DNA of 64,000 bases from Candidatus Peregrinibacteria bacterium (GTDB lineage Bacteria > Patescibacteriota > Gracilibacteria > UBA1369): contig JADZCU010000004.1 in assembly GCA_020851415.1 (NCBI GenBank), positions 1-64,000 on the forward strand, in the 5' to 3' direction. The notes under the pieces were generated by a model that was given only the letters and a program-made list of their open reading frames with translations, searched no databases and was not told the origin of the DNA. The translations under genes were made by a program, and so were the position numbers. Below are positions 1 through 6,812 of this stretch, piece after piece (position 1 is the stretch's first letter; each line of letters starts with the position of its first letter).

Positions 1-621
1 CATGCGGGTTTGCTTCGTGCGGAAGAGGGAATGTATCACCAATCACTTGAGGATATTGCGTTGATGCGTTCACTTCCGGATATGAAAGTGGTGTGTCCTG
101 CGGATGCGACTGAGACGAAAAAAGTTTTGGAAACGGTAATGATGGATTATGGACCAACGTATATTCGTTTGGTGAATGTGCCGTTGCCGGACTTGTATGA
201 TTCGCAGCACCAGTTTGTTTTTGGCCGCGGACATATTTATAAGCAGGGGACGGATGTGTGTATTTTTTCGTATGGGACGGCGCTGCATATGGCTCTTGAG
301 GCTGCGAGTGTTTTGGATCGTGACGGGATTTCGACTATGGTTGTGAATATGGCTTCGATTGCTCCAATTGATAAGGATTTGATCGAGGAATGTGCACGTC
401 AAATTTCACGGTTAGTGACGGTAGAAGATCATCAAACGGTTGGTGGACTTGGTTCTGCGGTTGCGGAAGTTTTGTCTGAGAGATACCCTGCAAAGCTTTT
501 ACGTCTGGGAATGGAAGGCTACGGTGAATCGGGCAAAGTAGACGACCTGTTTAAGAAATACCAGATGGACGGAGCGGGGATTGCGGAACGAGTACGAGTT
601 TGGGCGGCGGAGAAGGTGTAG
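1..621 (+). CDS. transketolase C-terminal part/subunit (5' truncated by window edge)
   Basis: ORF 10-621; RAEEGMYHQSLEDIALMRSLPDMKVVCPAD and C-terminal VEDHQTVGGLGSAVAEVL typical of transketolase C-terminal domain; open to the left edge. Confidence 0.9.
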   Translation, partial: HAGLLRAEEGMYHQSLEDIALMRSLPDMKVVCPADATETKKVLETVMMDYGPTYIRLVNVPLPDLYDSQHQFVFGRGHIYKQGTDVCIFSYGTALHMALEAASVLDRDGISTMVVNMASIAPIDKDLIEECARQISRLVTVEDHQTVGGLGSAVAEVLSERYPAKLLRLGMEGYGESGKVDDLFKKYQMDGAGIAERVRVWAAEKV

Positions 622-634
622 GGGGAAGTAAGGA

Positions 635-1480
635 CTAGAATATGATATTACCTGTTTCAGGGCTGTTGTTCTTTGGTAGTCTGTTTTTATTTACCTCAAA
701 ATTTTCTTTTTTGTTTAGCTGTTGAATAATAGGTTTCAAAGTTATGCTTTGAATTTCAGATCGTTTTTTTGGTGTTTTTGAAACTTTTAACTCCCCATTT
801 TTAAGCAAATCTTTATTTAATACTTTGTTTAAACCATCAGACACATCTTTAATATCTAGGCGTGCCTTGTATTTTTTGTTTAGTTCACGACGGATATATT
901 TTAAAACGGATGTGCTAGCTAGGATGCTAATTAAGTTGCTTTTGGAGGTGGCTTTTTTCTTTTTTGCACAATCTTCGAGTTTGCCACTTTTTAGGCTTTC
1001 TTTTGAGAGTAAACTGAGCGATTCCCATAATTTTTTTGGGTTGAATGTGGTTTCATCATCTACAAATTTAATAGAGAATATTTCTTCATGGGTTACGCCA
1101 TTGCTATTACTGAAGGTCAAATTATATAATTTCCATTCGATTCCATTGGTGAGCAAAACCCAATGGATACCTTTTGATTGAGCTGCGTAGCCTTCAGCTT
1201 GTTCAATATCTTTTTCGTTTAGTATTTTGTGGTTTGCCCGCTTAGCCTCAATGAGGTATTTAATTTTTTCACCTTGTTTAATAGCAAAATCGCAAAATCC
1301 ATATTTCATTAACACTTCTCTGGAGATTTCTCCCTTAAGTGGGTCGAAATTAAAGACTTCTTCGAAAAACTTCATAAGATACATAACTGTATCTGCTTCA
1401 TTTGCGTCGCTATCCCGCGCATCTTTAAAGATTTGAAAATATTTTTTGAGTTTTTTTGTGGTTGATCTGTCGAGCTTCAT
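635..1480 (-). CDS. stand-alone protein with type I restriction HsdR N-terminal-like (PD-(D/E)xK) nuclease domain
   Basis: GEISREVLMKYGFCDFAIKQGEKIKYLIEAKRANHKI...EQAEGYAAQSKGIHWVLLTNGIEWKLY matches HSDR_N style motif order; no helicase domain follows. Confidence 0.7.
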   Translation of the reverse strand: MKLDRSTTKKLKKYFQIFKDARDSDANEADTVMYLMKFFEEVFNFDPLKGEISREVLMKYGFCDFAIKQGEKIKYLIEAKRANHKILNEKDIEQAEGYAAQSKGIHWVLLTNGIEWKLYNLTFSNSNGVTHEEIFSIKFVDDETTFNPKKLWESLSLLSKESLKSGKLEDCAKKKKATSKSNLISILASTSVLKYIRRELNKKYKARLDIKDVSDGLNKVLNKDLLKNGELKVSKTPKKRSEIQSITLKPIIQQLNKKENFEVNKNRLPKNNSPETGNIIF

Positions 1481-1600
1481 AGGAAGATGTTTTACAGATG
1501 TTTTTTTGATAATCTATATATTATAAGTCATTTTCCCGTATTGGTCAATTTTAGCCTTATGACATGTGTGTGAGTATTCTGATAGGTCTCGTAACTGGTA

Positions 1601-1620
1601 AAGTCTGCCCGGGCAGACTT
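1601..1620. repeat. perfect 20-bp palindrome AAGTCTGCCCGGGCAGACTT
   Basis: read directly; core 18 bp recurs at 2450-2467. Confidence 0.95.
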
Positions 1621-1765
1621 CGGGGGGGTGTTATGGGTGTCGTTTTTCGATGGGTATTTTGACATATCTGTTTATTAAATACGAATGGTGATTGCTGATT
1701 TTGCCTTCTGTAAGCTGTAAAACTGTGTTTGTTTTGGCACATTTGACAGTGTTTTTCAATATGGA

Positions 1766-2983
1766 GTGCTGGATTTTTGGCTTTTAAATGCTAGAATTCT
1801 TATATTCTATATTTTTATTTCTTTGATGATTATGGAGGTTAAAGTTGAACAAATTGGTGAAATTGGTGAGCAGAAAATTTTGCTGAATGGGGTCGGAGTT
1901 TTAAATAAAATGCGTTCATTCAACAAAAAATTGTCTGTTGAAGATCAAAAACTTTATGAGCTTTGTAAAAAATTTGGGTCGCAGGCTTTGTCAGCCCGTA
2001 GAAAGTTCGCGGGGCTTTTGCCGGAAGTGTTTAGGCGACGTCTCTATCAGAAAAAAGGATTCAAATCTATTTTTGAGTTTGCTGCTAAATTGGCAGGAAT
2101 GAGTCAGGATCAGGTTCGGGTTGTTTTGAATCTGGAGAAACGGTTTGAGGATAAGCCGGTGCTGAAAAGTTTGTTGGTGAATGGGGAGGCGAGTGTGAAT
2201 AAATTGGCGAGGGTGGTTTCGATTGCTACGGTGGAAAATCAGGAGGTGGTTGCGGATAAAATTTTGGTTTTGCCGAAGAGTGCGCTGGAGACTTGGGTGC
2301 GGGATGAGAGGGTTGCGCAATGCGCGGATGGCGCGGCTGTGAGTCAGAGTGATGGAAAATATGTGTCTGATGGTGTTGTGGATACTTGCCAGAAGGGGGG
2401 CGATTTTGAAAATCAAAACGGCTTGCAGGAGAGTATTTTTGGAGGGGTGAGTCTGCCCGGGCAGACTTTGCAAATGGAAGTTTTGCAACAGCCAAAATTA
2501 GAAATGAATTTGGATTCTGATGTTGTGAGGGAACTTAACGAGCTTCATTCAAAAGGGATCGATGTGAACGAACTTTTGCGAAAAATGTTGGATCAGCGAA
2601 AGGTGAATATTGCTCAAGAAAAAGAGAAAATATCGAAAGAAATACATGAGAAAATGAGCGTAAATGACAAAAATATTCCCAAGAATCTTTCTCAAAAAAA
2701 GCGGGAGACGAATCACGCCGCATCAGTCCATGCCCAAAATCCAAAAAGTACCAGCCGCTATATTCCTGTGCGGATTCAGAAGATTTTGAAAGCTGAATAT
2801 GGCGCAAAATGCTCAATCCATACCTGCAAGAAACCATCAAAACAGATTCACCACACCCAGAGATTTAGTCTTTCTCAAAATCATGATGCGAAATATTTGG
2901 CTCCGCTTTGTGCCGAGCACCACATTATTGCTCATAGTATTGATGTGAAGTTTTATAGAGCACGGCAAAAATTTACGGAGTAA
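1766..2983 (+). CDS. HNH endonuclease family protein
   Basis: C-terminal CSIHTCKKPSKQIHHTQRFSLSQNHDAKYLAPLCAEHHIIAH (HNH-like Cys/His motif); likely start at an internal ATG (MEVKVEQIG). Confidence 0.7.
   Translation: MLDFWLLNARILIFYIFISLMIMEVKVEQIGEIGEQKILLNGVGVLNKMRSFNKKLSVEDQKLYELCKKFGSQALSARRKFAGLLPEVFRRRLYQKKGFKSIFEFAAKLAGMSQDQVRVVLNLEKRFEDKPVLKSLLVNGEASVNKLARVVSIATVENQEVVADKILVLPKSALETWVRDERVAQCADGAAVSQSDGKYVSDGVVDTCQKGGDFENQNGLQESIFGGVSLPGQTLQMEVLQQPKLEMNLDSDVVRELNELHSKGIDVNELLRKMLDQRKVNIAQEKEKISKEIHEKMSVNDKNIPKNLSQKKRETNHAASVHAQNPKSTSRYIPVRIQKILKAEYGAKCSIHTCKKPSKQIHHTQRFSLSQNHDAKYLAPLCAEHHIIAHSIDVKFYRARQKFTE
2450..2467. repeat. perfect 18-bp palindrome AGTCTGCCCGGGCAGACT inside HNH ORF (encodes SLPGQT)
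   Basis: read directly; in frame with the 1766-2983 ORF. Confidence 0.95.
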
Positions 2984-3010
2984 GAGGCAAGTGTTCCTTA
3001 GTTCCTCTGG

Positions 3011-3052
3011 GTTGTGGAACGAGCGATTGTTTGGGCTGTGGAGAAGGTGTAG
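3011..3052 (+). repeat. diverged copy of the transketolase 3' coding tail (VVERAIVWAVEKV-stop versus IAERVRVWAAEKV-stop)
   Basis: 33/41 nt identical to 581-621 by hand alignment, same stop codon. Confidence 0.75.
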
Positions 3053-3128
3053 GTTGCCAGCTTTACATAAATAAACAAGAGATAACGCTATTTTCGTTAG
3101 ATATTCTAGAGTTAAACATTGATTATCT

Positions 3129-3746
3129 CTATTTTGGCCGTGGAAGAGACCAGTTGTAGTGGATGCCCAGCATGCGGACTACGAAAACTGTGAGGGCGGT
3201 GGCGATGATGAGTATTTCTTGATTTACCTGGTAGTAGGAGAGTGCGAGGTAGAAAAGGCCGCCAATTAAACAGGCGGATGCGTAGAACTCTTTGCGGAAG
3301 ATGAGGGGGATTTCTGCACTGAGGACGTCGCGGATGACGCCGCCGAAGCTGGCTGTGATTATGCCGAGGAGTAAGCTTGCCCATATTGGCAGGCCTTTTC
3401 CCAGTGCGATGGTCATGCCAAGGCTCATGAAAAGTCCAAGACCCACCGCATCAAAAATGATGATTGGTTTGTTGAGTTTTTTGAGTAAACGATGGAAGAA
3501 GAAAACTATAAGTGTTGCTGCGATGCAGGCGATTAGATAGTTTGGGTTTCGGAGAAAGGGGATTGGGGTGTCTCCGATTAGGATTGAACGAAGTGTGCCT
3601 CCGCCTACGGCTGTAACAACGGCTAATACTAGCATACCCAAGATGTCCATTTTCTTTTGAATTGCGACCAGGGCTCCGGAAATTGCGAATACGAAAACAC
3701 CGAGGATGTCGACGAGTTGTATGAGGTCTTGGAGGGACATGTGCAA
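3129..3746 (-). CDS. trimeric intracellular cation channel (TRIC/UPF0126) family membrane protein
   Basis: FAISGALVAIQKKMDILGMLVLAVVTAVGGGTLRSILIGDTPIPFLRNPNYL and second repeat GGVIRDVL typical of UPF0126. Confidence 0.9.
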   Translation of the reverse strand: MHMSLQDLIQLVDILGVFVFAISGALVAIQKKMDILGMLVLAVVTAVGGGTLRSILIGDTPIPFLRNPNYLIACIAATLIVFFFHRLLKKLNKPIIIFDAVGLGLFMSLGMTIALGKGLPIWASLLLGIITASFGGVIRDVLSAEIPLIFRKEFYASACLIGGLFYLALSYYQVNQEILIIATALTVFVVRMLGIHYNWSLPRPK

Positions 3747-3750
3747 ATAT

Positions 3751-6129
3751 TTATTTCCATTGCCAATTATCTACTTCCGGGTTGTCTTTGCCGAATTTGT
3801 GGATGTAGATTTCGTGGTCGGCGATGATTTTTTCGAAATGTTTGATGAGGGCCGGTGCTTTTTTGGCGATGGCTGAGTTTGTTTTTGCGGCTTTTTCGAT
3901 GGCTTCCATGGCCAAGTGATAGCGGCTGGCTTTGTTTAAGACCATCATTTCGAAAGGTGTTGTTGTGGTGCCTTCTTCGTTGTAACCGTGAATAGAGAAT
4001 CTTTCGGCGTGCTTGTGGCCGAAGATGAGTTTTTTGATAACTCCGGTGTAGCCGTGGAAGTTGTAGATAATTGGTTTATCCGTGGTGAAGATTTCTTCGA
4101 ACTTTTCGTTGCCAATTCCCAGTGGGTGGCGTTCGTCACCGATGCCAAGTGCCGTGAGTTCTGAAACATTTACAAAGCGGGTTTTGAGCTCAGGGATTAC
4201 TTCTTTTAAGAGTTGGATGGCTGCCATGCTTTCTTGTACCAAGGCGTCGCCCGTTGCAGCCATAACAATATCTGGATCTTTGGTTCCTGCGGGGTCAACC
4301 CATTTCCAAACTCCAATACCGGTTTTGAGTTCTTCACGGGCTTCTTCTAAGGTGAGCCATTGTGGCAGTGGATTTTTTCCTGCGACGATGACGTTAATTC
4401 CGTTAGTGCGTTTGAGACAGTCTTCCATAATTACCAGCATGCTGTTGGCATCGGCAGGGAAGTAGACACTGCAGAAATTGCCGTGTTTTTCCAAGACATT
4501 GCTGACAAAGCTTGGGTTCTGGTGCGAGAAACCGTTGTGTTCCTGACGCCAGCCAACGCTGGTGAGTAAGTAATTGAGTGAGGCAACCGGTTTTCTCCAT
4601 TTTACTTTTCCGGACTGTTTTAAGAATTTTGCATATTGGTCTACCATGCTGGCAACGATGGTTGCGAACGCTTCGTAGGTTACGAAAATTCCATGGCGGC
4701 CGGTGAGGAGGTATCCTTGTAACCAGCCTTGAAGGTTGTGTTCGGAAAGGACTTCCATCACACGTCCGTTTGGTCCGACGTTTTCGTCATATGGGTGAAC
4801 CGGCCACATGTAGGCGCGATCTGTTACCTGGAAAAGATCCATGAATTTGTTGGATTCTGTTTCGTCCGGACACATGAAACGGAAATTTTTTGGATTGAGT
4901 TTGATAACGTCGCGGAGCATTTTTGCGCTGACTGCTGTGTTGCTGCCCATGGTTGCCGGGCCGCGTTTTTTGAGAGCCACTGCATAGTTTTTGAGCGGTG
5001 GAAGTTTGAGTGCTTTGAGCATTTCTCCTCCGTTGGCGTGTTTATTTTTGCCCATGCGGAGTGAGCCTTTTGGAACGTACTTGAGTACTTCGGGGAGTGG
5101 TTGGCCTTTGGCGTCGACCAATTCGTTGAAGCGGTAACTTTCCAGCCAGTGTTTGATGAGTTGGAAGTGTCCTGGATTTGTACGAGGATCGTTGATAGGG
5201 ATGCCGTGGGAATGGTACAGGCCTGCGACTTTGTGGCCGTCGGCTTTTTCAATGCCGGTGTCACCTTTTGGTGAACGAAGGACGATCATTGGCCAACGAG
5301 CTTTGAGATATGGTTTTTTTGATGAGCGTGCTTTCTTTTGGATAGCGCGGATGCGTTTGTAGGCGGCTTCGAGTGCTGAATTCATATCGGCATGAGCTTT
5401 TGCAGATGTGATGTGTTCACAACTGACGATCATTGGTTCGTAGCCGTAGCCTTTGAAGAGGTGCGTGAGTTCTTCATCACTCATGGTGGCGAAGATAGTT
5501 GGGCCGGTGATTTTGTAACCGTTGGCGTGAAGAATCGGGAGCACCGCACCGCTGGTTTTTGGGTTTAAGAATTTGTTGCCGTGCCATGCTGTGGCGAGCG
5601 GACCTGTTTCTGCTTCGCCGTCACCAACGACGCAAGTGACTATCAGCTCTGGATTATCCATCACGGCACCGAATGATGTTGCGAGGGAGTAACCGAGTTC
5701 GCCGCCTTCCAGGATTGCTCCTGGGGTTCCAGGGTTGGTGTGGCTTGGGAAGCCGCCCGGCCAACTGAACATGCGAATGAGTTCTGCTGTTCCTTTTTTA
5801 TCGCGCTTGAGCTGTGGATAGTATTCGGCGAGAGTGTTTTCTGCGAAGAGGTTGGCGATAACAGCAGGTGCGCCATGGCCTGGACCAGCGATGTACATCA
5901 TGCTGGGTTTATGTTTGCTGATGAGATAGTTTACGTGTGCGTAAATGAAACTGAGCCCGGGCACGGTTCCCCAATGTCCCAGGATTCTTTCTTTGATATG
6001 TTCCGGCTTGAGTTCATCTGTGAGCAGGCAGTTTTCTTTGAGATATAACTGCGCGGCGCCAATGTAGTTTACGTAACGGAGATATTTATCGAACCACGTG
6101 AGAACTGGTTTGGGTAATTTTTTTGCCAT
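3751..6129 (-). CDS. xfp: xylulose-5-phosphate/fructose-6-phosphate phosphoketolase
   Basis: YIGAAQLYLKEN...GHWGTVPGLSFIYAHVN...GPGHGAPA...SYPGGIPSH-like SWPGGFPSHTNPGTPGAILEGGELGYSLATSFGA; full length 792 aa. Confidence 0.97.
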   Translation of the reverse strand: MAKKLPKPVLTWFDKYLRYVNYIGAAQLYLKENCLLTDELKPEHIKERILGHWGTVPGLSFIYAHVNYLISKHKPSMMYIAGPGHGAPAVIANLFAENTLAEYYPQLKRDKKGTAELIRMFSWPGGFPSHTNPGTPGAILEGGELGYSLATSFGAVMDNPELIVTCVVGDGEAETGPLATAWHGNKFLNPKTSGAVLPILHANGYKITGPTIFATMSDEELTHLFKGYGYEPMIVSCEHITSAKAHADMNSALEAAYKRIRAIQKKARSSKKPYLKARWPMIVLRSPKGDTGIEKADGHKVAGLYHSHGIPINDPRTNPGHFQLIKHWLESYRFNELVDAKGQPLPEVLKYVPKGSLRMGKNKHANGGEMLKALKLPPLKNYAVALKKRGPATMGSNTAVSAKMLRDVIKLNPKNFRFMCPDETESNKFMDLFQVTDRAYMWPVHPYDENVGPNGRVMEVLSEHNLQGWLQGYLLTGRHGIFVTYEAFATIVASMVDQYAKFLKQSGKVKWRKPVASLNYLLTSVGWRQEHNGFSHQNPSFVSNVLEKHGNFCSVYFPADANSMLVIMEDCLKRTNGINVIVAGKNPLPQWLTLEEAREELKTGIGVWKWVDPAGTKDPDIVMAATGDALVQESMAAIQLLKEVIPELKTRFVNVSELTALGIGDERHPLGIGNEKFEEIFTTDKPIIYNFHGYTGVIKKLIFGHKHAERFSIHGYNEEGTTTTPFEMMVLNKASRYHLAMEAIEKAAKTNSAIAKKAPALIKHFEKIIADHEIYIHKFGKDNPEVDNWQWK

Positions 6130-6158
6130 AGGAATGGGTTTTAGAGTTTGTAATTTAT

Positions 6159-6812
6159 TTATGAAAGGAGGGTTGGAAATTTTTCCAATAACTCATGATA
6201 ATCTTGCACCACAATATCTGCTCCTGCTTGTTGTAACGCCTCTTTTGACTCTCCGGTTGTGACGGCAACGCAAAACATGTTTGCGGCTTTTGCGGCTTTT
6301 ACTCCGTTTAATGCGTCCTCGAAAACGATACAATTTTGTGGTTCTACGCTGAGTTCTTTTGCGGCAAGGAGGAAAAGATCCGGTGCGGGTTTGGTGTTTT
6401 TAACTTGTTCTTGTGTGACGATTTTCTTGAACCAGTGATCGCCGATTTGGGATCTTTCTAAAAGTTTTTTTGCTGCATCTTGTTTGTTTCCGGATGCGAT
6501 TGCGATTGGGAGTTTTTTTGTTTCCGCTTTTTTTAGTAGTTCGATAATGCCTGGTACTTGAGGTATTTCGGCTTCAGCGATAATTTCATCGTAGTATTTT
6601 TTCTTTTGATTGGCGCAGGCTGTGACCTCTTCTTCGGTTGGATTTTTGCCGTTTTCTTTGAAGACGGCTTCACAGGTTACTTTTGAGCGTTTGCCGGAAT
6701 ATTTTTTTTGGTCTTCTTCACGTGAGTAGGTGATGCCGTACTCTTTGAACGTTTTGATTAAAGCATCCGCATGAAAATGCTGGCTGATGATGAGTGTGCC
6801 GTCCATGTCCAT
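6159..6812 (-). CDS. HAD-superfamily hydrolase (beta-phosphoglucomutase/phosphatase-like)
   Basis: IKALIMDMDGTLI motif; IAIASGNKQDAAKKLL; CIVFEDALNGVKAAKAANM. ORF is open to 7034 but upstream part crosses a long hairpin and ndh; true start uncertain. Confidence 0.85.
   Translation of the reverse strand: MDMDGTLIISQHFHADALIKTFKEYGITYSREEDQKKYSGKRSKVTCEAVFKENGKNPTEEEVTACANQKKKYYDEIIAEAEIPQVPGIIELLKKAETKKLPIAIASGNKQDAAKKLLERSQIGDHWFKKIVTQEQVKNTKPAPDLFLLAAKELSVEPQNCIVFEDALNGVKAAKAANMFCVAVTTGESKEALQQAGADIVVQDYHELLEKFPTLLS

Follow-up and report, generated by a model that had tools for sequence, protein, structure and literature searches.

The 3' end of the transketolase gene (tkt) at the start of this contig probably carries an inserted cassette, consisting of a substitute tkt tail, an HsdR_N-like gene and an HNH gene, and the event that placed it there was very probably an exchange of gene tails rather than a local duplication. 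The anatomy of tail exchange is shown, by sequence comparison, at both tkt and queG of this genome, and a third example, at rnhA in a related bacterium, can be aligned with empty sites.

The duplicated transketolase tail

The window (the whole stretch of DNA analyzed) comprises the opening 64 kb of contig C4, in a draft genome of 1.42 Mb, with window position 1 at base 1 of the contig. The coding sequence with which it opens was predicted to be transketolase, and Pfam matches identify it as the C-terminal half of that protein; the N-terminal part lies on contig C52, which overlaps C4 by 127 bp. Direct comparison within the 64-kb window confirmed that 581-621 recurs at 3012-3052 with 33 of 41 positions identical, the runner-up among ungapped matches to this 41-mer on either strand being 23/41. 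A blastn search of the whole genome with the tkt tail found it in two places only (578-622 and 3009-3053, 83%, E = 6e-6), and a direct repeat of E < 1e-6 was found in 0 of 378 control windows of equal geometry in this window. The longest block common to both tails is only about 14 nt, and the tkt sequence 5' of the 41-45 nt tail is absent at the second site (3009). The features of the locus are as follows.

1..621, plus strand: tkt, C-terminal half, the target gene, truncated by the contig start (PF02780 2.4e-29, PF02779 8e-11)
578..622, plus strand: tail copy 1, joined to tkt; putative substitute from the cassette (83% to 3009-3053; analogy with rnhA)
635..1480, minus strand: cargo gene for an HsdR_N-like nuclease-type protein of 281 aa (HSDR_N_2 3.8e-5, just below the Pfam cut-off)
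1601..1620: additional copy of the HNH gene palindrome, AAGTCTGCCCGGGCAGACTT, in the interval between the cargo and HNH genes
1697..1834, plus strand: conserved leader 5' of the HNH genes (homologous to C15 215-340 and to C63 1360-1439)
1832..2983, plus strand: HNH gene, open from 1766, with a predicted ParB/Noc-like DNA-binding domain, a disordered linker and a C-terminal HNH domain
2450..2467: in-frame palindrome AGTCTGCCCGGGCAGACT within the HNH gene's linker, where it encodes SLPGQT; putative binding site of the HNH protein itself
3009..3053, plus strand: tail copy 2, the putative displaced original tkt 3' end (sequence match; analogy with rnhA copy 2)
3129-3746, minus strand: flanking gene of the glycine-transporter family (PF03458)
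3751-6129, minus strand: flanking phosphoketolase gene, xfp

The minus-strand cargo gene had been called HsdR_N-like from its translation, and a match of that kind was indeed found, although it is a weak one. The protein also matches a phage family of unknown function (phrog_17239, 2e-40), while PADLOC returned weak matches only, all to this cargo. The gene is rare in the order, being present in 4 of the 89 genomes (about 0.7-1.5 Mb each) that make up the order-wide comparison set. As originally noted, no integrase is visible: none was seen by eye among the ORFs of the first 8 kb (1-8 kb), four of which were scanned against Pfam, and neither a tRNA gene near the insertion site nor an RNA hairpin at the tkt stop codon was found. 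The inserted segment had been placed at 622-3010. An inserted cassette is still the favored description, but by analogy with rnhA (see below) it would include tail copy 1 and extend over about 578-3008; on the same analogy, copy 1 would be the substitute and copy 2 the displaced original.

In each of five relatives from the same family, a convergent xfp gene follows tkt, and the intervening content differs, from 0 to 1.75 kb. In G076, a member of another genus, tkt adjoins xfp with almost nothing between, while in G074, G075, G078 and G080 the two genes are separated by 0.9-1.75 kb of unrelated genes, the congeners G074 and G075 differing by one gene. Since the content varies among the five, accessory DNA evidently comes and goes at this locus. 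The empty site envisaged by the original prediction is thus approached at tkt only by G076, where the gene abuts xfp. A tkt search of further genome contigs yielded distant relatives only (24-40% identity), several of which are named Patescibacteria (Magasanikbacteria, Daviesbacteria, Levybacteria), so that this genome is probably that of a patescibacterium; plasmids returned xfp fragments only. As a separate observation, the differing genes between tkt and xfp in G074 and G075 (L052 6400-8400, L053 2000-3920) are neighbors of a peptidase-E-like gene common to both and of an inverted repeat of 128 bp.

Tail duplications at queG and rnhA, with empty sites at rnhA

The search for other genes with the same tail duplication, which the original prediction had proposed, found queG in this genome and rnhA in G045, which belongs to the same order but to a different family. 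All three loci share one layout: a core gene ending in tail copy 1, a cargo gene, an HNH gene and tail copy 2. The HNH gene is on the strand of the target gene in each case, and copy 2, on that strand too, starts 0-30 bp past the HNH stop codon; the ORFs of the three cassettes showed no integrase. The anatomy first proposed for tkt, a putative substitute tail with a displaced tail at the far junction, recurs at both loci, and at rnhA the site is empty in two congeners.

The HNH gene has two more copies in this genome, on contigs C63 and C15. On C63, the queG tail at 238-300 is repeated at 2369-2431, directly 3' of the HNH gene (63 bp, 81%), with a 258-aa cargo gene between the tails. The two queG copies have a 22-bp identical block in common; copy 1, the tail of the intact gene, is family-like (LQRNARI) and copy 2 is deviant, and the comparison does not distinguish the native copy. 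Contigs C15 and C63 are strain alleles within one bin (97.8% over 770 bp), and on C15 an HNH unit sits exactly at the 3' end of a cobalamin adenosyltransferase gene, where the C63 allele is empty. In these alleles (L059 1-1400, L058 3813-4682) the C15 HNH gene has an internal stop, and for that reason may be decaying.

The rnhA locus allows the two tails to be told apart. Downstream of rnhA in G045 lie a 327-aa cargo gene, the HNH gene and a second rnhA tail (74 bp, 72%), which starts right at the stop codon of the HNH gene. In G046 and G047, of the same genus, rnhA is uninterrupted and a thioredoxin gene follows within about 17-100 bp. In G047 the gene runs straight into the sequence found after copy 2, the outcome looked for at an empty site. 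Copy 2 of G045 and its downstream flank are collinear with G047 (265 bp, 84.5%), while similarity to copy 1 ends at the stop codon, which identifies copy 2 as the original and copy 1 as the substitute. The exchange is also seen against G044: over the first 360 bp the rnhA genes of G045 and G044 share 94% identity, but over the final 78 bp 69%. Of the codon changes between the G045 tails, 13 are synonymous and 5 non-synonymous (neutral expectation 16% synonymous, P < 0.001), and because the differences are mostly synonymous, duplication followed by drift is excluded at rnhA. The exchange point lies about 78 bp before the stop codon and the right junction adjoins the HNH stop codon with few shared bases, the identical core at the junctions being about 8 bp. 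At the level of sequence comparison it is proven for rnhA that an imported 3' end completes the gene and that the original tail was displaced.

Frequency and proposed route of tail exchange

Among the 95 HNH loci with enough flanking sequence, a repeat of E <= 1e-5 was found at five, compared with 1 of 300 control ORFs (Fisher P = 0.004, or 0.013 for 4/95). The five comprise the three duplicated coding tails, L260 (near dnaJ) and L242 (another dispersed repeat), and about 90 of the 95 show no detectable tail duplication. At L260 (G050:C1), 57 bp upstream of dnaJ (4478-4534) are repeated at 6105-6161, 28 bp after the HNH gene (86%), which is possibly the same exchange at a promoter. The sole control repeat is itself a tail exchange, at purH of G035:C4 (L229 4498-6010), where a cassette carries an AAA+ ATPase gene and no HNH gene is adjacent; purH and the ATPase were identified by eye. 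Copy 1 of the purH tail begins at 4506 and copy 2 at 5953, and they differ by 5 synonymous changes and 1 non-synonymous change. HNH loci are enriched for such repeats, yet HNH is not required for tail exchange.

Other candidates were set aside. L086 consists of tandem pilin genes, L078/L242 represent another dispersed repeat, and a 30-bp duplication at L136 in g46 is AT-rich and unconvincing. Comparison of occupied and empty sites at nusG and at a second locus in g46 shows intergenic insertion with no clear duplication.

In the mechanism proposed here, the donor would be DNA of a relative in which the corresponding gene's 3' end is linked to the cassette. Homologous recombination would join the two on that side, while the opposite end would join inside the recipient gene tail with little or no homology, i.e., illegitimately. 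The incoming cassette would supply its own last tkt codons and push the original codons to the far junction, directly past the HNH gene, and the tkt reading frame would stay complete because the cassette brought its own last codons. Such homology-anchored illegitimate recombination is the route towards which we lean, if only slightly. A cut by the HNH protein could assist and would not be strictly needed; an HNH-induced break would raise the rate, and would account both for where the HNH gene sits and for the enrichment. Natural transformation has been shown in Saccharibacteria, and com genes are conserved across the CPR (PMC10633639). Displaced 3' pieces in Vibrio T6SS arrays and Rhs loci have been attributed to homology-facilitated illegitimate recombination (PMC5361080). 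Those loci resemble the cassettes in having one homology-anchored end, a newly inserted module and the old 3' part downstream; however, they are toxin loci that change their product, whereas here the genes are core metabolic ones, the protein is kept and an HNH gene is a recurrent passenger.

A more active role for the HNH protein, as a free-standing homing-type or mobile nuclease that cuts the recipient 3' end so that donor-templated repair copies tail, cargo and HNH gene, is a less probable account, if a serious one. HNH is the sole gene that all three coding cases have in common, with its end invariably 0-30 bp from the displaced tail, the repeat adjacent to dnaJ in G050 has the same geometry, the family is multicopy and dispersed (71 of the 89 genomes, up to 41 matches), and the occupied C15 and empty C63 alleles document HNH insertion at the strain level. 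The purH exchange proceeded without an adjacent HNH gene, however, most HNH loci lack tail repeats, the cognate palindrome is absent from the insertion sites, and no common target motif was recognized by eye. Free-standing HNH homing endonucleases are similar in that the gene lies beside a conserved gene and spreads with its adjacent sequence, but they differ from this family, which is multicopy on bacterial chromosomes, has a predicted ParB/Noc-like domain and carries a palindrome inside the gene itself.

The e14 prophage in icd of E. coli is an integrative element whose imported tail completes the gene, the original tail lying at the other junction. The cassettes are like it in that outcome, and in the largely synonymous divergence seen at rnhA, but they lack an integrase, are about 2.4 kb in length and are found at several unrelated targets with tails of 9-78 bp. 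The parallel with e14 drawn in the original prediction thus stands for the tail swap and is doubtful for the means. An integrase acting in trans from a larger element, placing a satellite at a tkt 3' attachment site, would give the observed arrangement and would suit the 22-bp identical block at queG; it is nevertheless improbable, as an integrase gene was seen in 0 of 3 cassettes, closely related HNH units sit at different target genes, and the longest block shared at tkt is only about 14 nt. With no integrase in the cassettes, and the same layout at purH around a cassette that lacks HNH, general one-sided recombination is at least as likely as site-specific targeting.

About as improbable is that the tkt tail was duplicated locally and then drifted, or that copy 2 is the remnant of a second, degraded transketolase; the remnant was named at the outset as a reading that would refute the prediction. 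The tkt tails, taken by themselves, fit neutral drift: 1 of the 7 changed codons is synonymous, there is no synonymous bias, and they are too short for a test alone. Against this, the 41-45 nt tail at 3009 is preceded by no further tkt sequence, and queG and rnhA show the same anatomy, with rnhA tails that differ mainly at synonymous positions and a copy 2 collinear with the empty site. An artefact of assembly or binning that merged strain variants is the least probable explanation. It is true that C4 starts within the 127-bp stretch common to C52, and that one bin holds C63 and C15 as strain alleles, but the two tkt tails are on a single contig and about 17% different, and an independent genome shows the same layout with both copies on one contig.

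Exchange of tails would be a recurring way to insert DNA at core genes of this and a related tiny bacterium without breaking them: small, gene-poor genomes could take in DNA beside core genes when the incoming piece brings the gene ending with it. Displaced tails would be scars that record both donor and recipient, so a genome-wide search for tail exchange becomes possible.

The HNH protein family and its palindrome

The HNH assignment of the plus-strand gene was borne out by a C..C..HH..C..HH motif, with C319, C324, H332, H333, C352, H355 and H356 invariant among 48 sequences, and by a PHROG HNH match of 1.7e-4; a Pfam HNH match was obtained in only 3 of the 48 relatives. The family as such is absent from Pfam and NCBIfam. 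The Pfam families listed for these 48 sequences include neither a ParB-type match (CTPase domain) nor DUF222, and the family was not assigned to 13E12/DUF222. It occurs in 71 of the 89 genomes of the order, with up to 41 matches per genome, where one gene may yield more than one match. A pattern scan of viral contigs gave 41 matches and 0 confirmed HNH relatives.

A link to ParB/Noc had been proposed from the sequence and the palindromes ahead of the structure search. The AlphaFold model of the HNH protein (pLDDT 82) has only helices before the HNH domain, and Foldseek ranked ParB best (probability 0.96, E 0.37), along with Noc, EcoKMcrA and IscB, all at E > 0.3. A sequence-profile search of a PDB set with the family gave no match. 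As no Foldseek match reached E <= 0.001, the ParB/Noc-like fold rests on this ranking and on the palindromes.

A perfect palindrome of at least 12 bp is found in the linker of 52 of the 95 HNH genes, with its axis on a codon boundary in 51 of the 52. Its sequence differs from gene to gene, with centers CCCGGG, CACGTG and CGCGCG. In 75 genes, base -2 tracks residue 141 (K with C in 30/34; C, N, S or T with A in 22/22; Q with G in 8/11), base -4 tracks residue 119 (R with G in 56/62; K with T in 11/12) and base -6 tracks residue 89 (R with G in 16/18). When proteins of >70% or >60% identity are dropped, columns 141, 119 and 89 still rank highest or close to it among 224-247 columns, only 8-12 groups being left at the strictest cuts, and since they survive these filters, shared ancestry alone is an unlikely cause. 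Judging from this covariation, each HNH protein probably binds the palindrome inside its own gene; such binding might serve autoregulation or place the nuclease.

The family would resemble ParB and Noc in its putative fold, and is like them in the centers CACGTG and CCCGGG, which are those of parS and the Noc site, and in base -2 (half-site position 6), a specificity base in both (PMC7383237). It differs from them in having no recognized CTPase domain and in being fused to an HNH nuclease, and the Foldseek matches are at E > 0.3. The equation of residues 119 and 141 with the ParB specificity residues 179 and 201, suggested by their equal spacing, was dropped, as alignment by eye of the GE[LV][ST] motif places ParB 201 at about 115. 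Short dispersed palindromes, some in frame inside proteins, are known as the Rickettsia palindromic elements and REP. The HNH palindromes differ from these in being 14-24 bp long and few per genome, with a sequence that tracks the DNA-binding residues of each gene.

It may tentatively be suggested that the HNH genes represent a new mobile nuclease unit, in which a ParB/Noc-type domain joined to HNH would read its own in-frame palindrome by a residue-to-base code (141/-2, 119/-4, 89/-6), the unit moving between genomes by exchange of core-gene 3' tails without an integrase. The covarying palindromes of this nuclease family would be a natural data set on how DNA-binding specificity evolves in a ParB/Noc-like domain, and the residue-base covariation yields predicted single-residue specificity switches, namely K141N (C to A at -2) and R119K (G to T at -4).

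Copies of the palindrome are also seen away from the HNH genes. In this genome one lies in frame (KSLPGQTQ) in an apparent extra stretch of the lipoyl synthase gene lipA (G000:C15:8936, L098 1501), and another a few bases past the stop codon of a grpE-like gene (G000:C4:125853, L096 1501). Across the order, the palindrome TCTGCCCGGGCAGA is present in 18 of 89 genomes, compared with 0 for the reversed control, and all 18 of these genomes carry HNH genes.
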